A DNA stretch of 43,493 nucleotides from Patescibacteria group bacterium. GTDB lineage: Bacteria > Patescibacteriota > Patescibacteriia > SG8-24. The DNA lies in assembly GCA_028714475.1 (NCBI GenBank), contig JAQTNC010000002.1, forward strand, positions 86,042-129,534, written 5' to 3'. Under the pieces are notes generated by a model, which searched no databases, was not told where the DNA came from, and was given only the letters and a program-made list of their open reading frames with translations. Shown in pieces: positions 16,804 to 43,493 of this stretch. Position 1 is the stretch's first letter. Each line of letters opens with the position of its first letter. A program made the translations under genes and the position numbers.

Positions 16804-18282
16804 ATGCCTGATATCAATCCAATCGAGGAGCGCGTCGTGCGCCGCGAGAAACTCAAGGCCTTGCTAGACGCCGGCGTGAACCCTTACCCGTCCCGAGTGA
16901 CGCGCAGCCATGCCGTGCGCGAGGTTTTGGCTGCCTTTGGCCGTCTTGCGGAAAGCGGCACGGCCGTAACGGTAGCCGGACGCTTGCGCGCGGTGCGCAT
17001 CCACGGCGGCGCGGCTTTCGCCGATCTTGAGGATGACGGCGAAAAGATCCAGCTGCATTTCAAGCAGGACATCCTCGGCTCCGCTTTTGATCTTTTTATC
17101 GCCACCGTTGATCACGGCGATTTCATCGGCTGCAACGGCAAGGTCTTCGTCACCAAACGCGGCGAAAAAACCGTGGAAGTCGCCGGATGGGAAATGCTGG
17201 CCAAGGCGCTGCGGCCGTTGCCGGCCAAGTGGCATGGGCTTACGGACACCGAAGTCCGTTACCGAAAACGCTACTTGGACCTTCTCGCCAACCCCGAAGT
17301 GCGCGGCATTTTCGAAAAGCGCTCGGCCATCGTCCGTGCCATCCGTGACTTCCTGCAAGGCGAGGGGTTCATCGAGGTCGAGACGCCCGTCCTCCAGCCG
17401 ATTGCCGGCGGCGCTGATGCCCGGCCGTTCATCACCCACCATAACGCCCTCGACATCGACCTGTATCTCCGAATCGCGCCGGAGCTCTACCTGAAACGCC
17501 TGGTCGTCGGCGGGTTCCCCAAGGTCTTCGAGATGGCCCGCTGTTTCCGCAACGAGGGCATCGATCACCTGCATAACCCGGAATTCACGCAGGTCGAGTT
17601 CTACCAGGCCTATGCCGACTACAACGATCTCATGAACCTGACCGAGCGGCTCCTGCCCAAGGTGGTCGAAAGCGCCGTCGGCAAGCTGACCGTCGAATAC
17701 GGCAATCAAACCTTGGATTTCACGGCGCCGTATCCGCGCCTGACGTTTAAGCAGGCCCTGCTTGAATTCGGCCAAATCGAACTTGATGATTGTCCGGATC
17801 GGTCCAGTCTCGCCAAAGCCGCTGAGAATCGCGGCGTCGAGGTGCTTTCGAGCGACGGCCCAGGCCGCATCATCGACAATCTTTACAAGAAGCTCATCCG
17901 GCCAAAAATCATCCGGCCGACCTTCGTCATCGATTATCCGACGGACATGAAGCCGCTCGCCAAGCGGACCGCGAATGATCCGCGTTTTACCGAGTCGTTT
18001 CAGCTGCTCGCGGCCGGGGGCTTCGAACTGCTGAACGCCTTCACCGAACTCAACGATCCGCTCGACCAACGCGCCCGTTTCGAGGAACAGGAAAGGCTCC
18101 GCGAGGCAGGGGACGAGGAAGCCCAGCGCATTGACGAGGATTTTCTGGAAGCGCTCGAGACCGGCCTGCCGCCGACGGCCGGGTTTGGCATGGGCATCGA
18201 CCGCCTGACCGCGCTCCTCACCGGCTCGCATTCGCTCAAGGAGGTCATCCTGTTCCCGACCCTGAGGCCGGAAGAAAAATGA
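16804..18282 (+). CDS. lysS: Lysyl-tRNA synthetase, class II
   Basis: Charges tRNA-Lys. At 492 residues it has an N-terminal OB-fold anticodon-binding domain (about 50-150) and a class II catalytic core. Motif 2 is MARCFRNEGIDHLHNPEFTQ and motif 3 is GFGMGIDRLTALLTG near the C-terminus, both characteristic of LysRS-II. Ends in TGA; a short Ser-rich leader ORF begins 2 nt after the stop codon, so lysS, leader and serS are probably on one transcript. Confidence 0.97.
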   Translation: MPDINPIEERVVRREKLKALLDAGVNPYPSRVTRSHAVREVLAAFGRLAESGTAVTVAGRLRAVRIHGGAAFADLEDDGEKIQLHFKQDILGSAFDLFIATVDHGDFIGCNGKVFVTKRGEKTVEVAGWEMLAKALRPLPAKWHGLTDTEVRYRKRYLDLLANPEVRGIFEKRSAIVRAIRDFLQGEGFIEVETPVLQPIAGGADARPFITHHNALDIDLYLRIAPELYLKRLVVGGFPKVFEMARCFRNEGIDHLHNPEFTQVEFYQAYADYNDLMNLTERLLPKVVESAVGKLTVEYGNQTLDFTAPYPRLTFKQALLEFGQIELDDCPDRSSLAKAAENRGVEVLSSDGPGRIIDNLYKKLIRPKIIRPTFVIDYPTDMKPLAKRTANDPRFTESFQLLAAGGFELLNAFTELNDPLDQRARFEEQERLREAGDEEAQRIDEDFLEALETGLPPTAGFGMGIDRLTALLTGSHSLKEVILFPTLRPEEK

Positions 18283-18284
18283 TT

Positions 18285-18347
18285 ATGAAAAGCCGCCAAA
18301 TGACCTCCATCTCGTCGTCTTCCTCCTCCGCTGTCGCGGGAGGCTGA
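18285..18347 (+). CDS. Serine-rich leader peptide of the serS attenuator
   Basis: A 20-codon ORF: MKSRQMTSI, six consecutive Ser codons (TCG TCG TCT TCC TCC TCC, 18312-18329), then AVAGG and TGA at 18345-18347. Eight of 20 residues are Ser. The ATG lies 2 nt after the lysS stop, so translation may be coupled; a second in-frame ATG at 18300 would also keep the Ser run. The stop codon overlaps the 5' arm of the antiterminator (18336-18345). It lies upstream of seryl-tRNA synthetase, the expected target for such a control peptide. The layout matches trp/his/phe-type attenuation; no T-box motif is present. The ORF and pairing are seen directly; the regulatory role is inferred. Confidence 0.75.
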   Translation: MKSRQMTSISSSSSSAVAGG

Positions 18348-18397
18348 TTGGCGCTGACAAACCCAGCCCAGCAAGCCTCCCGCTTTGGGAGGTTTTT
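18336..18397 (+). promoter_or_regulatory. Transcription attenuator of serS (antiterminator/terminator pair)
   Basis: Antiterminator: GCGGGAGGCT (18336-18345) is perfectly complementary over 10 bp to AGCCTCCCGC (18374-18383). Terminator: CCTCCC (18376-18381), loop GCTTT, GGGAGG (18387-18392), TTTTT (18393-18397). The two share 18376-18381, so only one can form. CCTCC copies inside the leader (18304-18308 and in the TCC run) can also pair with GGAGG at 18339-18343, giving a third, protector hairpin when no ribosome is present. A ribosome stalled in the Ser run would leave 18336-18345 free; one reaching the stop codon would cover it. Confidence 0.78.
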
Positions 18398-18425: not shown

Positions 18426-18491
18426 TGCTAAAATGTGATAAATAATGGCCAAAATCTCCATCTTGTTTAAGCTGATGGAACATGTCATTAT
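18426..18491 (+). promoter_or_regulatory. Candidate internal promoters between the attenuator and serS
   Basis: An extended -10, TG-C-TAAAAT (18426-18434), and a second candidate, TTGTTT (18463-18468), 17 bp, CATTAT (18486-18491), lie in an AT-rich stretch after the attenuator terminator. If active they would give serS a basal supply that bypasses attenuation. Confidence 0.4.
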
Positions 18492-18517: not shown

Positions 18518-19783
18518 ATGATTGACATCAAATTGATCCGTGAAAACCCCGAGGCCGTGAAAGCCGGCTGTCGCGCCAAGAACGCCGACGTTGATATCGA
18601 CGCCGTCATCAGGCTTGATGCCGAACGGCGCGAACTGATCCAGAAATCCGAGGGGCTGAAGGCCCAACAGAATCGCGAGTCCGAGGAGGTCGCCAAGGCC
18701 GCGCCCGCGGAACGCGCCGCCAAAATCGAGGCGCTCAAGAAGATCAAGGACGAATTCAGGGCCTTGGAGGCGAGGCTTGATGCAACGAGTGCCGAACTCG
18801 ACAAGCTCTTGCGCCTCATCCCGAACCTGCCGCGTCCGGACGTGAAGGTCGGCAAGGACGACTCGGAGAATTTCGTCATCAGCACTTTCATGGAGCCGAC
18901 AAAGTTCGACTTCGATCCGAAAGACTACATGACGCTCGGCGAGAAACTCGGCATCATCGACGTCGAGCGCGCGGGCAAGGTGAGCGGCGCCCGTTTCGGT
19001 TTCCTCTTGCGTGAAGGCGCGCTTCTTGAGTTCGCCCTCGTCCAATACGCCATGAAGACCCTCCTGCCTGAAGGCTTCGCTCCGGTCGTCCCGCCGGTCA
19101 TGATCAACGAGAAGGCGATGGGCGGCATGGGCTATCTTGATCGCGGCCGCGACGAAATATATCACCTCGCCGAAGACAACCTTTTTCTCGTCGGAACTTC
19201 CGAGCAGGTCATCGGCGCGATGCACATGGACGAAATCATGAATGAGGTGGACCTGCCACTCCGGTACGTCGGCTTCTCCTCCTGCTTCCGCCGCGAGGCC
19301 GGCTCCTACGGCAAGGACGTGCGCGGCATCCTGCGCGTGCACCAGTTCGACAAGCTGGAGATGTTTTCGTTCACCACGCCGGAAGTCTCGGACAAGGAAC
19401 ACGAATTCCTGCGCTCCATGGAGGAAAGGCTCCTGCAGGGGCTGAAACTGCCGCATCACGTGCTCGGCATCTGTTCGGGCGACCTCGGCGATCCGGCGGC
19501 CCGCAAGTGGGATCTCGAGACGTGGATTCCGTCGCAGAATACCTACCGCGAAACCCATTCCACCTCCACCTGCACGGACTACCAGGCCCGCCGCCTCAAC
19601 ATCCGCCTGCGCCGCAAGGACGGGACGGTCGAGATTCTGCACACCCTGAACGGCACGGCTTTTGCCATCGGCCGCACCATCATCGCCATCCTCGAGAATT
19701 ACCAGCAGGCTGACGGCTCAATTCGCGTGCCGGAAGCGCTGCAGCCGTACATGAACGGCATAACCGTGATTGGCCCACGCTAG
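18518..19783 (+). CDS. serS: Seryl-tRNA synthetase
   Basis: Charges tRNA-Ser. At 421 residues it has the N-terminal antiparallel coiled-coil arm that reads the long variable arm of tRNA-Ser (about 30-100), then the class II core. Motif 2 lies in YVGFSSCFRREAGSYGKD and motif 3 in NGTAFAIGRTIIAILENYQ. ATG 18518 is preferred to 18482 because homologues begin MIDIKLIRENP. Start context is AATATTATG, no Shine-Dalgarno. Preceded by the Ser leader/attenuator and followed by alr, ddl and ftsQ without a terminator. Confidence 0.97.
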   Translation: MIDIKLIRENPEAVKAGCRAKNADVDIDAVIRLDAERRELIQKSEGLKAQQNRESEEVAKAAPAERAAKIEALKKIKDEFRALEARLDATSAELDKLLRLIPNLPRPDVKVGKDDSENFVISTFMEPTKFDFDPKDYMTLGEKLGIIDVERAGKVSGARFGFLLREGALLEFALVQYAMKTLLPEGFAPVVPPVMINEKAMGGMGYLDRGRDEIYHLAEDNLFLVGTSEQVIGAMHMDEIMNEVDLPLRYVGFSSCFRREAGSYGKDVRGILRVHQFDKLEMFSFTTPEVSDKEHEFLRSMEERLLQGLKLPHHVLGICSGDLGDPAARKWDLETWIPSQNTYRETHSTSTCTDYQARRLNIRLRRKDGTVEILHTLNGTAFAIGRTIIAILENYQQADGSIRVPEALQPYMNGITVIGPR

Positions 19784-19802
19784 GGCGGGGCAGGGAATGC
19801 TT

Positions 19803-20942
19803 ATGGCCAGACCGGCGGCCAAAACCTGGCTGGAAATTTCGCGCTCGGCGTTGCGCCACAACGCCGCCGCTTTGAAATCGCTGGTCGCGCCAGCTGAACT
19901 GGTCGCCGTGGTCAAAGCCAATGCCTACGGGCACGGCCTGGCCGCTACAGTAAATGCTATCGACGACATCGCTGACCGATTTGCCGTTGACTCGCTCGAC
20001 GAGGCTTTGGCCGTGCGCGCCGCCGGCTCCATTCGGCCGGTCATCATCCTGGGTTATACGCCCCCCAGCCGCCTCGCCGAAGTCGTCCGCCACGGATTCA
20101 GCCAGACGATCTATGACATTGCCGCCGTCAAACTCATGTCTCGCCACGCCACGTCTCGCCGACCGGCAAAGGTTCACATCAAGCTGGAAACCGGCACCTC
20201 ACGACAGGGCGTGTTGGCCGCTGACTTGCCGGCCCTCGCCAAGACGATTCGCAAACTGCCAAACCTGACGGTCGAAGGCGTCCATACCCATTACGCCAAC
20301 ATCGAGGACACCACCGACAGCTCTTACGCCATGCTCCAGCTGAAGCGCTTCCGGTCAGCCCTGCGTTTGCTCGACCATTGTGACATTCGTCCTCCGCTCG
20401 TTCACACCGCCTGCAGCGCCGCCGCCATCCTGTTCCCGGAAACGCGCTTCGCCGCCGTCCGCACCGGCATCGCCCTTTATGGGCTGTGGCCGTCTAAGGA
20501 AACCTTTCTTCAGGCAAGGCACAAGAACATCGCCTTGAAGCTCCAGCCCGCCCTGACCTGGAAAACTTCCGTAGCTCAAGTGAAACGCCTGCCGGCGGGC
20601 ACGCCGGTGAGCTACGGCCTAACGGAAAAACTCCACCGACCGTCAACGATTGCCGTTCTGCCGTTCGGCTATTATGACGGATACGATCGCGGCCTATCAT
20701 CCGCCGGCGAGGTGCTTGTTAACGGGCATCGCTGCCGCATTCTCGGACGCGTCTGCATGAACATGTGCGTAGTTGACGTGACGTCCGCTGGCCGCATTAA
20801 GCCCGACGACGAGGTCGTTCTCCTGGGCCGACAAGGACGAGAAGTCATTTCAGCCGAGGAAATCGCCGGCCGGATCGGCACCATCAACTACGAGATAGTC
20901 AGCCGCATCAATCCGCTGTTGCCGCGCGTGGCAGTCAAATGA
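19803..20942 (+). CDS. alr: Alanine racemase
   Basis: PLP enzyme making D-Ala for peptidoglycan. At 379 residues from ATG 19803 (an ATG at 19797 is an alternative) it has the PLP lysine K38 in VVKANAYGHG and the second catalytic base Y271 in PVSYGLT, with the C-terminal motif GRVCMNMCVVDVT. Full length. 19 nt after serS and 1 nt before ddl, so co-transcribed with D-Ala-D-Ala ligase, the enzyme that uses its product. Confidence 0.95.
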   Translation: MARPAAKTWLEISRSALRHNAAALKSLVAPAELVAVVKANAYGHGLAATVNAIDDIADRFAVDSLDEALAVRAAGSIRPVIILGYTPPSRLAEVVRHGFSQTIYDIAAVKLMSRHATSRRPAKVHIKLETGTSRQGVLAADLPALAKTIRKLPNLTVEGVHTHYANIEDTTDSSYAMLQLKRFRSALRLLDHCDIRPPLVHTACSAAAILFPETRFAAVRTGIALYGLWPSKETFLQARHKNIALKLQPALTWKTSVAQVKRLPAGTPVSYGLTEKLHRPSTIAVLPFGYYDGYDRGLSSAGEVLVNGHRCRILGRVCMNMCVVDVTSAGRIKPDDEVVLLGRQGREVISAEEIAGRIGTINYEIVSRINPLLPRVAVK

Positions 20943-20943
20943 T

Positions 20944-22062
20944 ATGGCCAAGAAGCTCAAGGTCGCGGTCATCTATGGCGGGCGGTCCGGCGAACACGAG
21001 GTGTCCCTGCAGTCCGCCGCTTCGGTCATCGCCGCTTTGAATCCGAAGAAATACGATGTTCTGCCGATCCGCATCGCCAAAGACGGGCGCTGGCTGAACG
21101 AGCCGCAGCTGCTGCCGGATCGAAAGCCGCGTCAACTCAAAGCCACCAAGGCCACGCCGATCAATTCCCTAGTCGCCGTAACCGAGGCCAAAACTTCGGA
21201 CGGGCTATTTGACGTTGTCTTGCCCATCGCGCACGGCACGGGCGGAGAGGACGGCAGCCTGCAAGGAATGCTCGAGCTGGCCGGCCTTCCTTACGTCGGC
21301 AGCGGCGTGCTCGGTTCGGCCGTCGGCATGGACAAGGCCGTGCAGAAAAACATCTTGCGCCAAGCCGGGGTGCCGGTTGTCAAATCCGTCGACTTCCGCG
21401 TCGGCGAATGGGAGCGCGGCGCTGCCGATGTCGTCCGCAAGGTCGTGCGGGCGCTCGGTTTCCCGGTTTTCATCAAGCCTGCCAACCTCGGCTCGTCCGT
21501 CGGCATCAGCAAAGCGCGCGACGAACGTGAACTGGTCAAGGGCATCAAGGAGGCCTTGCGCTACGACACCAAAATAATCATCGAGGAAGGGTTAGAGAAT
21601 ATCCGGGAGATCGAGTGTGCGGTCATCGGCGAAACCGAGTGGCCGCGCACTTCCGTGCCGGGCGAAGTCGTCACCGGTCACGACTTCTACGATTACCACG
21701 CCAAGTACACGGATGGCGAATCGCGCGTCGTCATCCCGGCGCGGCTGCCATCGGCGGTCGCAAAAAAGGTGCGGCGGTTGGCCGGCCAGGTCTTCACGGC
21801 CCTCGACGCCCATGGTCTCGCGCGCGTTGACTTCTTTGTCACCAAATCCGCCCGCCCGAAGATCATCGTGAACGAGATCAACACGATTCCCGGGTTCACG
21901 CGTTTCAGCATGTTCCCGCGCCTGTGGGAAGCTACTGGCTTGCCTTACGACAAGCTGCTGGACGAGCTGATTCGCCTGGCCCTCGTCCGCGGTAACCGCC
22001 AAAAGAGCCTTATTCGCGACTTCCGACCGGCACCAACCGGTGATAGGGGAGGGAGGAGATAG
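20944..22062 (+). CDS. ddl: D-alanine--D-alanine ligase
   Basis: ATP-grasp enzyme joining two D-Ala for the peptidoglycan stem. At 372 residues the motifs are the N-terminal YGGRSGEHEVSL, the grasp loop FIKPANLGSSVGISKA, and the C-terminal metal site VNEINTIPGFTRFSMFPRLWEA. Starts 1 nt after alr in a GATATG context. The C-terminal tail past LVRGN is short and basic. The GGAGG near its 3' end may serve ftsQ. Confidence 0.95.
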   Translation: MAKKLKVAVIYGGRSGEHEVSLQSAASVIAALNPKKYDVLPIRIAKDGRWLNEPQLLPDRKPRQLKATKATPINSLVAVTEAKTSDGLFDVVLPIAHGTGGEDGSLQGMLELAGLPYVGSGVLGSAVGMDKAVQKNILRQAGVPVVKSVDFRVGEWERGAADVVRKVVRALGFPVFIKPANLGSSVGISKARDERELVKGIKEALRYDTKIIIEEGLENIREIECAVIGETEWPRTSVPGEVVTGHDFYDYHAKYTDGESRVVIPARLPSAVAKKVRRLAGQVFTALDAHGLARVDFFVTKSARPKIIVNEINTIPGFTRFSMFPRLWEATGLPYDKLLDELIRLALVRGNRQKSLIRDFRPAPTGDRGGRR

Positions 22063-23181: not shown

Positions 23182-23207
23182 CGGGCCTGCAAAAGCAGGC
23201 CCGTTTG
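23182..23207 (+). terminator. Terminator of the greA-ftsQ unit
   Basis: CGGGCCTGC (23182-23190), AAAA loop, GCAGGCCCG (23195-23203), then TTTGATT. Perfect 9-bp stem. Confidence 0.87.
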
Positions 23208-38215: not shown

Positions 38216-41200
38216 CTAACGTCGGTTCGCTTCTCGCGCCTTCTTGTCGGCCACTGACCTCGCCTTCTCCCCGACCTCCGCCGCCTTGGCGGACCATTTC
38301 GGGGCGAGCTTGCTGACGCGGGTGCGGACGCCCTTCTCTATCCCCGCCTCCATGCGGCTGCGCATGCCCTCGAGCGTGGCGTTGACCCTGGTCGGCGCCT
38401 TGCCGGGGTGGCTGGCGGTGAGCGTGAGGCCGAAGTCGGGCTCCGGGCTGCCGACGTCCACGGCGCGGAAGAGGAAGACCTTGGACTCGTTGCGGAGCAC
38501 GGTGCTGACGCAGCTTTCCGTCGTGACGACGTCGCCGTTCTCGTCGAGCACTCCCGCTATCTCGTACCCCGCCGGCACCTCGAGGCAGGCGTCAACCGTC
38601 CAGTCGTTGTCATCGGCCGTGAGCACGAAGGGGTACAGCTCCTCCTCGCCGCTCCAGACCACGTAGTCCGGCTGGAGGACGTCGAGGCGCGAGCCGGTCA
38701 CGACCGTCAGCTTCCCGCCGTCGAGCTTCACTTCCCCGTTCTTCTTGATGTGCTTGATGATATGGAGGTTCTTGGTGAGCATGAGCCAGTTCGGGTTGAC
38801 GTCCTCGAACACGTCATCGTCGTCGTCCTCGGCGTCGAAAGCGTTGCGGACGGACTTCCTGAACTCCTTGAGCTTGCCGGTGTACACGGACTGCGCGCCT
38901 TCCGTGTGCTTCACGACGACCAGGAAGCGGCCGGGGTGGTCCTCGCCCGCGAGGCAGGTCCCGGCGGCGTCCGTCACGCACGCGCCGACGAGGCCGACGC
39001 CGGACTCGTACACGTCGTCCATAAGGTGCTTGGCCGGCCTCCGGCCGCCGAAGGCCGAGATGAAGTCGGCGTCGTCGCGGTCGAAGACCTTGACCGTGAC
39101 TCCCGCGAGGGGCCTGGTGCATTCGACGATTGGCTTGCCGTCGGGGCGGTACCCGCACTCGCCGGTCTTCGCGGAGTCGATTATCCTCATGTCCACGTTC
39201 GTCCGGTCGGCGAAGGGGCAGCCGTTCCTCTCGGGCGCGCCGGGGACCGCCGGGCAGTCGTCGTCGGCGTCGAGGACGCCGTCGCCGTCAGCGTCGGGGC
39301 TCACGACCGTCCAAGCCCACGTCGCGAGGGTGGTATCGGGGTTGCCGGCGGGGTCGGAGGCATAGACGGAGAAGGAGTGGGCGCCGAGGGCTAGGCCGGA
39401 ATACTCTTTGGGGCTCGCGCACGGCTCCGCAGTGACCCCGTCGAGCGAGCAGGAGAAGACACTCCCCTCCTCGGTCGCGGCGAAGGCGAACGCCGCGGAC
39501 GTCTCCGTCGTGGTCGCCGCCGGGCCGGAATCGATCGTCGTGTCGGGCGCAATCGTATCAAGGGTGACGGTGACGATGGCCGTCGCGGGGTTTCCGGCGG
39601 CGTCGGTCGCCGTCGCGGTGAGCGCGTTCGCGCCCTCTACGAGCGGCAGGTCGGCGCACATCCAAGCGCCTTCAACGTTTTCGCAATTCGCGCCGTTCAC
39701 GCTCACGGACGCGAGGCCGGAGCCGGAATCTGACGCCGTGCCGGAAACCGTCACGGTCGGCTGGTTCGTGAGCAGGCCGTCGTTCGGGGCCGAGATGGCG
39801 ACGGCCGGGGCAACGGTGTCAACCGTCCATTCAATCGTCGCCGGGGTCGGGTCGTCGTTGCCTGCGGCATCCGTGGCGCGGACGGCGAAGGAGTGCGGCC
39901 CGTCGGCGAGTCCGGCGAGGCTCGCGGGGCTCGCGCACGTCGAGAATACCGCGCCGTCGAGCGAGCAGGCGAAGGCGACGCCGTCCTCCGTGGCGTGGAA
40001 CGCAACGGTTGCGTCAGCGGAGCTGACAAGTTCTGCTGGACCGGAATCGATGACGGAGTCTGGCGGAACCGTGTCGAGGGTGACGGAGACGGAGGCGATG
40101 GCTGAATTGCCCGCGAGGTCGGTCGCCGTCGCCGTGAGCGCATTGGACCCTTCGGCAGAAAGCGGGACAGCCGGGCACGACCAGTCATTTCCGGAAATGC
40201 CGCAGGCGGTACCGTTAACCGAAACGGCGGCCAAGCCCGATTCGGCGTCGCTGGCGGTCCCAAAAACGGCAATCGTGGGCTGTTTGGTCAACAAGTCTTC
40301 GGCCGGGAAGACGATCGCAACACTCGGCGAAGCCGCGTCGGTCGCCTGGAACGTTATGGTCGGACCGTCGCCGACGTTCCCGGCGGCGTCCGCACATCGA
40401 ACGAAGACGTCATGTCCGCCGTACACGGCAAATGAATGAGCAAGTGTCGCTATTCCGGTCACACCGCTCGGAGCCGACAGACTCATGATTCCCTGTTCGT
40501 CGCCGTCGACAAGCAGAGTGCAGGCCGTCACGCCGGTGTCGTCGGAATATGCGGCGGATAGAGTCACCGTTTCGCCCATTGGCGCGGACAACGGCGAGAC
40601 TTCACCGACGACCGGAGGGCTCGCGTCAACGACCGTCACCGGCTCGTCCGGGTTCGTCGGGTCGAAGTTGGCGTCATACGCCAGGACCTGGCCGGGCTGA
40701 ATATTTCCGCCCACGACAGACAAGCCTTCTGAGCCGCCGCTCGAGACGGCCATGTGGTATTCGCCCCCTTCGGCCACGCCAGTGAGCTCGACATGATACT
40801 GGCCCGGTAGTGGGTCGGGTATGAACACGACCTTGACCCCAGCCGGGTCGCTCTCGCCGGAGTACTCGGCACCGGGGATGCCGTTTGAGTCGCTCGTTAT
40901 CACCCTGCCCTGCGGGTCGGTGATCCTGACCGAGACGGGCGAGGCGAACCAGTAGCTGATGAAGTCGGCGTAGCTCGGGCTGGGGACATAAGTCTGCGGC
41001 AGGGCGCCGAGGATGCGCGCCACCACCGGTTCGGAGGAGTCGAGGATGCCCGTGTGTGTGGCCGGGATAACAGTCTCCGAGTCAACACCCTCGATTGTTG
41101 CGGAAGCCCTCAAGACCGTTCCGTCACCCAACAGACTGTTCGCCACTGGATCAATCGGATCCGGCCTGCCGTCAACCCACAGCGGCGCATCATCCTCGCT

Positions 41201-43493
41201 TCTGGTCACGACGGGGATGGAATCGACCGTGGGCTCGCCTGTGCCTATTATCGTATGAACGTGTGCCCTAGACAGGAGAGTCGAAAGATTCGAGTTCATG
41301 GACGGCAGTAACTGGTTCCTTTCGATCAACGACGCGCTGGGCACCGTCTCCCCATCCCTGACGACGTAGTCGTAGGTGGGGAGAAACTCCTGAACTGAAT
41401 TAACGTTGCTATGAATTGTGAGATATCTACCTTCGTCAGTTAAGCCAAACAATTTATTGTCTGACAACGACCACAGGTAACCAGCCATAAATGACTTTGT
41501 CTTTGCATCCCAACTTTTCGGTATCCTCCCGCCCTCCCAAAGTCCATATGATGTCGACGAGCCCTGGTTGGGCACAGCGACAAGCACAAGCTGGTGAACA
41601 TCCTCGCGCCCGACATAGCGATCGCTCTCGATGTAGCTGCGGGAAAGGAGCCCGCCCATGCTGTGCGCCACGACGTCAACCTGTCCGCAGTTGCAGGCCG
41701 CCTTCGCCCTGTCTATCATGGGGATGAGGTAACTGTCCACCGAGTTCCCGGCTTGGTTCACATCGTTGGATTTGCGCCAGTCGTAGAACGCGACGAACAG
41801 GTCCGTGTCCATCTCGTATCCAGCCTCCTCGAACGTACCGATCAGACCGTCATAATATTCGTTGCCGGGAGAAAAGCTCCAGCTGTCTGGCAATGAGTCG
41901 TGAAGCATGACGTTCCAGTTCCAAGAACCCATGATGCCCGGCACAATTACGACGGGATGCCTAAGCGTCACGCGTGTGTCGACGGTGGCCTCGTTGCCCG
42001 AGTTGTCGCGAGCCATTACGTGAAGGGTATTCTCACCGTCCTCGAGTTCCACACCGGGACACGCCCATTGGCTGCCGGCGATTGCACAGTCGGAGCCGTT
42101 GACGCTGACGGAGGCGATGCCGGAGCCGACACCGTCGTCAGCCGTCCCCGATACGTTGACTGTTGTCGTCGCCGTCCTGCCGCCTTCCTGCGGCGTTATG
42201 ACGGCCAGCGACGATACCATTGTGTCGATTGTCCATGAAGCCGAGGCCGGAGAAAGGTCCGCGTTTCCGAATGGGCCGATGGCATAGACCTCGAATGAAT
42301 GTTGACCTTCCGCGAGGCCGGAGTACGTCTTCGGGCTCTGACAAGCCTCCCAAGACCCTCCATCGAGGCGGCACTGGAAGGACCTGCCGAATATCGACCG
42401 GAACGACACCGAGGCATCGCCTGTCTTCACAAACCCAGTAGGGGCGAAGGAAATGGCCGTCTCGGGGACAATCGGGTCGTAGTCGAGCCAGGGCGAGTAG
42501 GTGACGTTGGCGGAGACCTTCTGCCCCGAGCACGGCGGGACGATGGTGTCGAGGCATAGGCCGCCCCCACCCCACCAGTTGTTCTGGGCCTCGACGACGG
42601 TTGAGCCGGCGTTTCTTATGGCATAAGCGTTGTCGTGGACGCTGGAGCCCGTGACCGAGGCCGAGCCGGACTCGACCCTGACGCCGGCGTCCTGGTGGTC
42701 GATCTCGGATCCGGAGACGGAGAGCGAGCCGCCCCTGACCCTCACGCCGGCGTCGGCGACGTAGCCGGAGCCGGTCTTGCAGGCCGTGACGCGGGAGCCG
42801 GACAGGGAGAGGGAGCCGCCGGCCTCGGCGAGGAGGCAGGCGCGGGGGTCGCCCGAGTAGACGGAGTAGCCGCCGTAGCGGACGACGGCGCCGTCGATGG
42901 AGACGGACGAGCCGGACTTGGCGACGACGGCGTTCCAGTCGCCGGGGGCCGGGGAGGTGGCGGCGCCGTCGCCGTTGGTGTCGCCGCCCGCGGAGTCGTC
43001 CTTGAGGCTGGTGAAGTAGACCGGGGCCTCGGGGGTGCCGTTCACGTCGAGCGTCCCGCTGACGTTCAGGCCGTGGTAGCCGCCCGTCCGGGACTTGACC
43101 ACGGCGCCGGGGCCGACGGTGAGCGTGGCGCCGGCGGGGACCGCGACCGCGCCGGAGACTACGTACGGCAGGTCGGCGTTCCAGAGGGCGCTCGCGGCTA
43201 GGGTGCCGGAGACGAGGAAGCCGGCGGACGCCCCGCCCGTGGCGGAGTTCCCTGAATGGGTCAGGGAGACGGCGGCACTGACGTTGGCCGCGGCCAGGGC
43301 GTTCGCGTCGAGCGAGGTGCCGGTCACGGAGAGCGTCCCGGCGTCGGCGCTGATCCCGTAGGAGAGGTTGTCGTGGACGCTGGAGCCCGTGACCGAGGCC
43401 GAGCCGGACTCGACCCTGACGCCGGCGTCCTGGTGGTCGATCTCGGATCCGGAGACGGAGAGCGAGCCGCCCCTGACCCTCACGCCGGCGTCG
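38216..43493 (-). CDS. Giant surface protein with beta-helix repeats, Ig-like domains and an embedded alpha/beta-hydrolase (5' end outside window)
   Basis: At least 1,758 codons; the frame is still open at the window edge. Order from N to C: right-handed beta-helix repeats rich in G-S-L-S-V-S-G and D-A-G-V-R-V (43493 to about 42500); two Ig-like domains (to about 41970); a serine alpha/beta-hydrolase (about 41965-41000); a beta domain; further Ig-like modules in two alternating types (about 40640-39310), with VSVNG..C and CSLDG..CASP cysteine pairs; a calcium-type DADGDGVLDADDDC repeat (about 39300-39230); and a C-terminal region ending in a basic helix. Hydrolase triad by pattern: Ser (AHSMGG, codon 41662-41660), Asp (GDGTV, 41125-41123), His (PATHTG, 41056-41054), with the oxyanion-type VPGIMGS at its start. 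Resembles lipase/LCAT-like enzymes. Expected at the cell surface; a role in host contact or lipid attack is inference. Confidence 0.83.
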   Translation of the reverse strand, partial: DAGVRVRGGSLSVSGSEIDHQDAGVRVESGSASVTGSSVHDNLSYGISADAGTLSVTGTSLDANALAAANVSAAVSLTHSGNSATGGASAGFLVSGTLAASALWNADLPYVVSGAVAVPAGATLTVGPGAVVKSRTGGYHGLNVSGTLDVNGTPEAPVYFTSLKDDSAGGDTNGDGAATSPAPGDWNAVVAKSGSSVSIDGAVVRYGGYSVYSGDPRACLLAEAGGSLSLSGSRVTACKTGSGYVADAGVRVRGGSLSVSGSEIDHQDAGVRVESGSASVTGSSVHDNAYAIRNAGSTVVEAQNNWWGGGGLCLDTIVPPCSGQKVSANVTYSPWLDYDPIVPETAISFAPTGFVKTGDASVSFRSIFGRSFQCRLDGGSWEACQSPKTYSGLAEGQHSFEVYAIGPFGNADLSPASASWTIDTMVSSLAVITPQEGGRTATTTVNVSGTADDGVGSGIASVSVNGSDCAIAGSQWACPGVELEDGENTLHVMARDNSGNEATVDTRVTLRHPVVIVPGIMGSWNWNVMLHDSLPDSWSFSPGNEYYDGLIGTFEEAGYEMDTDLFVAFYDWRKSNDVNQAGNSVDSYLIPMIDRAKAACNCGQVDVVAHSMGGLLSRSYIESDRYVGREDVHQLVLVAVPNQGSSTSYGLWEGGRIPKSWDAKTKSFMAGYLWSLSDNKLFGLTDEGRYLTIHSNVNSVQEFLPTYDYVVRDGETVPSASLIERNQLLPSMNSNLSTLLSRAHVHTIIGTGEPTVDSIPVVTRSEDDAPLWVDGRPDPIDPVANSLLGDGTVLRASATIEGVDSETVIPATHTGILDSSEPVVARILGALPQTYVPSPSYADFISYWFASPVSVRITDPQGRVITSDSNGIPGAEYSGESDPAGVKVVFIPDPLPGQYHVELTGVAEGGEYHMAVSSGGSEGLSVVGGNIQPGQVLAYDANFDPTNPDEPVTVVDASPPVVGEVSPLSAPMGETVTLSAAYSDDTGVTACTLLVDGDEQGIMSLSAPSGVTGIATLAHSFAVYGGHDVFVRCADAAGNVGDGPTITFQATDAASPSVAIVFPAEDLLTKQPTIAVFGTASDAESGLAAVSVNGTACGISGNDWSCPAVPLSAEGSNALTATATDLAGNSAIASVSVTLDTVPPDSVIDSGPAELVSSADATVAFHATEDGVAFACSLDGAVFSTCASPASLAGLADGPHSFAVRATDAAGNDDPTPATIEWTVDTVAPAVAISAPNDGLLTNQPTVTVSGTASDSGSGLASVSVNGANCENVEGAWMCADLPLVEGANALTATATDAAGNPATAIVTVTLDTIAPDTTIDSGPAATTTETSAAFAFAATEEGSVFSCSLDGVTAEPCASPKEYSGLALGAHSFSVYASDPAGNPDTTLATWAWTVVSPDADGDGVLDADDDCPAVPGAPERNGCPFADRTNVDMRIIDSAKTGECGYRPDGKPIVECTRPLAGVTVKVFDRDDADFISAFGGRRPAKHLMDDVYESGVGLVGACVTDAAGTCLAGEDHPGRFLVVVKHTEGAQSVYTGKLKEFRKSVRNAFDAEDDDDDVFEDVNPNWLMLTKNLHIIKHIKKNGEVKLDGGKLTVVTGSRLDVLQPDYVVWSGEEELYPFVLTADDNDWTVDACLEVPAGYEIAGVLDENGDVVTTESCVSTVLRNESKVFLFRAVDVGSPEPDFGLTLTASHPGKAPTRVNATLEGMRSRMEAGIEKGVRTRVSKLAPKWSAKAAEVGEKARSVADKKAREANRR
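42629..43493. repeat. 738-bp period direct repeat in the beta-helix coding region
   Basis: The 127 bp at 42629-42755 recur, without a difference that I can see, at 43367-43493, where the window ends. The spacing is 738 bp, or 246 codons, so frame is kept. Further copies may lie beyond the window. Confidence 0.8.

Follow-up and report, generated by a model that had tools for sequence, protein, structure and literature searches.

The locus between lysS and serS raises the question of whether a short, serine-rich open reading frame and the hairpins following it regulate transcription of the seryl-tRNA synthetase gene. The window, that is, the whole stretch of DNA analysed (43,493 nucleotides), belongs to genome G000. 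The best explanation, to which we assign a probability of roughly 80%, is a transcription attenuator of the trp type, mediated by ribosomes, which senses tRNA-Ser charging and controls read-through into serS; this Ser attenuator is probably functional. Its components are as follows.

16804-18282, + strand: lysS, lysyl-tRNA synthetase (NCBIfam PRK00484/lysS_bact, above cutoff)
18279-18347, + strand: Ser leader peptide MIMKSRQMTSISSSSSSAVAGG*, its ATG overlapping the lysS stop codon; 18285 and 18300 are in-frame alternatives for the start
18312-18329, + strand: putative regulatory codons, six consecutive UCN Ser codons (read from the sequence; Ser runs kept in G008 and G009)
18322-18331, + strand: segment 1, a pyrimidine-rich stretch of Ser codons that can pair with segment 2 (folds, stem scan)
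18336-18345, + strand: segment 2, 5' arm of the antiterminator, GCGGGAGGCT; overlaps the stop codon of the leader (sequence, folds)
18374-18383, + strand: segment 3, 3' arm of the antiterminator, AGCCTCCCGC; overlaps the 5' arm of the terminator (sequence, folds)
18376-18397, + strand: intrinsic terminator (segments 3:4) with a T5 tract (sequence, folds)

The preliminary description had reported a 20-codon leader ORF at 18285-18347 (MKSRQMTSISSSSSSAVAGG*), and re-reading of the sequence reproduced these coordinates as well as the Ser run at 18312-18329 (TCG TCG TCT TCC TCC TCC). The ORF is present as described; its likelier start is the ATG at 18279-18281, so that the leader probably comprises 22 codons, with an additional in-frame ATG at 18300. 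The upstream ATG shares bases with the lysS stop codon (ATGA; A-TGA), and this overlap suggests that the leader is translationally coupled to lysS. Runs of TCN codons alone are not rare in G000 (76 five-codon matches), so the Ser run by itself is weak proof, and its combination with the switch is what counts. The exclusive choice of UCN codons within the run was also considered as a signal and was set aside as not significant (72% of Ser codons in the sampled window genes are UCN).

The two arms of the perfect 10-bp antiterminator, 18336-18345 and 18374-18383, were found as previously described, and the terminator reads CCTCCC-GCTTT-GGGAGG-TTTTT. The window-wide pattern scan for terminators missed this hairpin, probably since its rule lets some of the T tract base-pair with the stem. 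The leader stop codon (18345-18347) overlaps the end of segment 2. RNA folding, proposed in the preliminary description as a check, showed that three alternative hairpins are possible: 1:2 (inside the Ser codons), 2:3, and 3:4. The fold of the full element was more stable than that of its shuffles (z = -3.7), and the antiterminator fold (z = -3.8) was reached by none of 200 shuffles. The 1:2 hairpin, which in such attenuators favours termination as long as the leader goes untranslated, can form in all four genomes carrying the element (G000, G005, G008, and G009), the window copy taken alone being ordinary by energy (z = -1.0 against shuffles). When the 1:2 and 2:3 stems were scored jointly, both were matched by 0 of 400 shuffles of each of the four elements, and only 2 of 512 background terminators, the window's own included, scored as high on both. 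Folds, stem scan, and shuffles showed the antiterminator and terminator to be mutually exclusive in all four. Constrained folding of each gave the antiterminator with a ribosome placed on the Ser run and the terminator with a ribosome placed on segment 2.

Stalling, termination, transcript origins, and regulation are parts of the attenuator model that we infer from this arrangement. With ample charged tRNA-Ser, the ribosome on the leader would cross the Ser run, reach the stop codon, and cover segment 2, whereupon segments 3:4 would form the terminator. When charged tRNA-Ser is scarce, the ribosome would stall in the first Ser codons and mask segment 1, leaving segment 2 free; the 2:3 antiterminator would then form, and transcription would read through into serS. 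A ribosome halted at the final Ser codon would already start to occlude segment 2, and stalls early in the run are therefore expected to matter most.

Placement of G000 in Patescibacteria is based in part on its nearest named SerRS hits, one from Kerfeldbacteria and one from another genome of the phylum. The comparison covered twelve genomes of the order, of which ten belong to the family. A leader precedes serS in four genomes, namely G000 (SSSSSS), G008, G009, and, in a weaker form, G005. The leaders of the three relatives are the following.

G008, before serS: MNNQSNNTFNSSSSSV*
G009, before serS: MNIRFNLNLSSSSST*
G005, before serS: MKKEIVSTTYQLSRSASGLFGR*, weaker, only Ser-enriched

Two of these three other carriers (G008 and G009) have an SSSSS run, and the stop codon in all three lies a few nucleotides before, or inside, segment 2. 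The four serS elements include two from close relatives, G008 and G009, between which the indel in the Ser run is one codon long. The -35 region, the -10/ATG region, most of the Ser run, the stop codon, the antiterminator, and the terminator are kept in this pair, whereas the N-terminal part of the leader and the spacer that follows the terminator have diverged. Compensatory changes, another proposed check, were found at alignment stem pairs 23-57 and 25-55, where both sides change, in an alignment of only four sequences. A covariance model recovered one strong copy in each of the four genomes, always at serS, and no copy as strong outside them among 381 class genomes; the model was built from the same four copies and shows uniqueness, not independent support. 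Its input was slightly trimmed (the loops of G000 and G005 were shortened for stem register), and its scores for its own copies are high by construction. Thirteen weak matches of this search (E about 1e-4 and above) were inspected and set aside, as they look like common terminators or coding regions and lack a leader of this kind.

General conservation of the Ser leader was not borne out. Of the nine remaining genomes of the family, at least five lack the element, among them the ones whose SerRS is closest (G006, G002, G003, and G007). A terminator with no convincing Ser-rich ORF, named beforehand as a warning sign, occurs in G007 and G006; the G006 ORF MAGKVGSYSS* before the terminator was judged unconvincing as a Ser leader. 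The element is sporadic in the family, and one origin with losses and several origins are both compatible with the data. The same gene cluster holds two distant SerRS types, one in G001, G004, G005, G008, and G009 and the other in G000, G002, G003, G006, and G007, with identities to the window SerRS of about 45-50% and 60-72%, respectively; leaders occur with both types. Their presence at the same cluster position suggests in-place replacement. In G005, the interval from the attenuator's terminator to serS holds a 42-codon ORF, MNLDKKPDPCLQTNSKYKSIIPNQLKLYQIMRTNSGLNLAKK* (L009, reverse strand).

Codon specificity was evaluated against several backgrounds. Among 104 Patescibacteria serS upstream regions, Ser was the only residue to give runs of at least four in five before a terminator, and did so at three loci. 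A scan of 909 kb yielded 553 terminator-like hairpins, of which only eight follow a short ORF with at least five of six identical residues, three of these pairs being the Ser leaders at serS. No cognate run with a terminator was detected at other synthetase genes (PF00587 class II; PF00133, ileS/valS/leuS/metS-type; pheS) of the four carrier genomes, nor in G004, G006, and G007, where the same search covered the PF00587 group only, with fewer genes. In G008 and G009, the region before a class II synthetase gene (L189 and L194) has a strong hairpin with a T-rich tail at the start of the open frame, and no cognate codon run accompanies it. A covariance search for T-boxes (RF00230) gave no match in the window or the family serS loci; the same search found T-boxes at four of five Firmicutes serS loci.

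These comparisons bear on the simplest alternative, in which the hairpin is a plain lysS terminator, the Ser-rich ORF is accidental, and serS is transcribed from its own promoter. It accords with the absence of the element from most relatives, with G007, where a plain terminator separates lysS and serS without a Ser ORF, and with a promoter-like site (P2) downstream of the window terminator. We nevertheless consider it improbable, though the best of the alternatives, since other genomes show the Ser run, antiterminator, and terminator jointly at serS, the Ser run has been preserved despite divergence of the remaining leader, and ORFs of this kind occur at so few terminators.

The attenuator reading gains further from another gene. 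In a model search of 380 phylum genomes, the hisS upstream region of G575 was matched (E 5e-6). Its leader, MQKQNAKAPAFHHHSSI* (L271 1461-1575), is followed by an equivalent switch, and the downstream gene is HisRS by TIGR00442. Upstream regions of 70 hisS genes were then sampled from the order of G575, a different order of the phylum (L276-L305, L306-L345). Twenty of them have at least two His in three codons before a terminator, in the same layout, and 13 have at least three His in four, other residues reaching at most 3 on the same count. In most of the 20 leaders, the 2:3 stem was rarely matched by shuffles, and in 17 the best -10-like hexamer, often of strong consensus, ends 6-11 nt before the leader ATG. 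Taken with the Ser runs at serS, the His runs at hisS indicate that the leader codon matches the downstream synthetase in this phylum. It is likely that an undescribed set of leader-peptide attenuators is present at Patescibacteria synthetase genes (His at hisS, Ser at serS), many of them leaderless, and that it would provide a direct response to amino-acid starvation without T-boxes. The trp-type Ser attenuator first suggested for the window is supported both by recurrence of the complete arrangement in G005, G008, and G009 and by these cognate His leaders.

The extent to which the attenuator governs serS and the genes beyond it depends on the promoters and the downstream cluster.

18426-18434, + strand: extended -10-like motif TGCTAAAAT, a weaker candidate promoter (read from the sequence; low promoter score)
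18463-18491, + strand: P2, promoter-like site for serS, TTGTTT-17-CATTAT, downstream of the terminator (consensus matching)
18518-19783, + strand: serS, seryl-tRNA synthetase (NCBIfam TIGR00414); ATG 18518 by homology (start motif MIDIKLIREN), the ORF extending to 18482
19770-20942, + strand: alr, alanine racemase, overlapping the serS end; its true start may be later (Pfam, synteny)
20944-22062, + strand: ddl, D-Ala-D-Ala ligase (Pfam, synteny)
23182-23203, + strand: terminator-like hairpin of good G+C content after the ORF 3' of ddl (pattern scan)

Relatives widely retain the gene order lysS-(X)-serS-alr-ddl, X being nothing or what we take, from reading the sequences, to be an rdgB-like or a cytidylyltransferase-like gene. 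In the window, the ORF after ddl, the putative ftsQ of the preliminary description, had no family match in the profile search, and the serS cluster appears to end at 23182-23203. Farther downstream, the reverse strand contains a 1755-codon ORF (38216-43483, -). Promoter matches before the leader were found in G005, G008, and G009, with scores of 11.8-13.2 against a background 99th percentile of 12.5. Each ends 6 nt before the leader ATG, and a leaderless leader mRNA is therefore predicted in these relatives. G000 has no such match before its leader ATG; there the lysS transcript probably carries the leader, which, given the overlapping start and stop codons, is probably translated by ribosomes arriving from lysS. 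A P2-like site, TTGNNN-17-CANNAT (18-nt spacing in G001), stands just ahead of serS in most genomes of the family, whether they have a leader or not, with scores of 6.6-11.5 by consensus matching only; its block is identical in G008 and G009. At the serS 5' region of these two genomes (L007/L008), about 42 nt around TTGCGGCTCGGTGCCGCAGATGGCATCATTACTCGGG are identical and contain inverted repeats, a candidate promoter, operator, or RNA structure.

It had been proposed that Ser-tRNA charging might also gate alr, ddl, and ftsQ. As stated, this is not supported, given the conserved promoter-like site between the terminator and serS: P2, if real, would give basal serS transcription bypassing the attenuator, which weakens the case for gating of alr, ddl, and the following gene. 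Attenuation probably adds an inducible layer of read-through on top of this basal transcription, and its hold on the entire set of downstream genes is uncertain. P2 could even leave the attenuator marginal for serS. Carried further, the leader might act chiefly through a small transcript or peptide of its own, or set the 3' ends of lysS mRNA, serS being essentially P2-driven. The identity of the P2 block in G008 and G009 and the similar sites present with or without a leader agree with such a role, and a trans-acting leader peptide, peTrpL, is known elsewhere (PMC7298713); the fit of the regulatory codon to the downstream synthetase at both serS and hisS argues for control in cis, and we give this possibility somewhat less credence than an accidental ORF. 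That the switch answers a signal other than seryl-tRNA, e.g., a protein or general translation speed, is very improbable: 1:2, 2:3, 3:4 switching alone names no signal, but the codons are Ser at serS and His at hisS with other residues near background, and no Rfam family matches the window.

The response of Patescibacteria, a reduced and mostly uncultivated group, to amino-acid shortage is little known. If the Ser attenuator, together with the cognate His leaders at hisS, operates as proposed, ribosome-mediated attenuation would extend to this phylum, serine would join the amino acids whose codons regulate synthetase genes, and these organisms, which probably rely on others for their amino acids, would offer a testable starvation sensor. 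Among the open-access published papers searched (subscription journals and preprints excluded), none was found joining Patescibacteria or the candidate phyla radiation with leader peptides and attenuation, or joining ribosome-mediated attenuation with serS.

In the trp, his, and pheST attenuators of Proteobacteria, a short ORF with regulatory codons is followed by a 1:2 hairpin, a 2:3 antiterminator, and a 3:4 terminator, with the stop codon at segment 2; pheST is a known leader attenuator at a synthetase gene. The serS element shares the ORF, the 2:3 and 3:4 stems, and the stop codon at segment 2, can form a 1:2 hairpin, and differs in its Ser codons, its target gene, its occurrence in Patescibacteria, and its leader start, which overlaps the upstream gene in the window or sits at the predicted transcript start in relatives. 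In Streptomyces, attenuators with a cognate-rich leader peptide have been predicted before leuS and trpS2 (PMC1262725); these concern Leu or Trp and Actinobacteria, and the text makes no mention of serine or serS. In bacilli, the synthetase-family genes hisS*/hisZ are under a His-run leader, and leaders can replace T-boxes (PMC2965389); these systems belong to Firmicutes and to His, serS and serine being unmentioned in the main text. The serS T-box of Firmicutes (RF00230) likewise senses tRNA charging and controls serS by termination, but it binds the tRNA directly, without a leader ORF. In B. subtilis, ribosomes pause on UCN codons under serine starvation (PMC3862929), which favours the stalling proposed for the serS leader; serine sensing through sinR acts within a coding gene, without a terminator switch.
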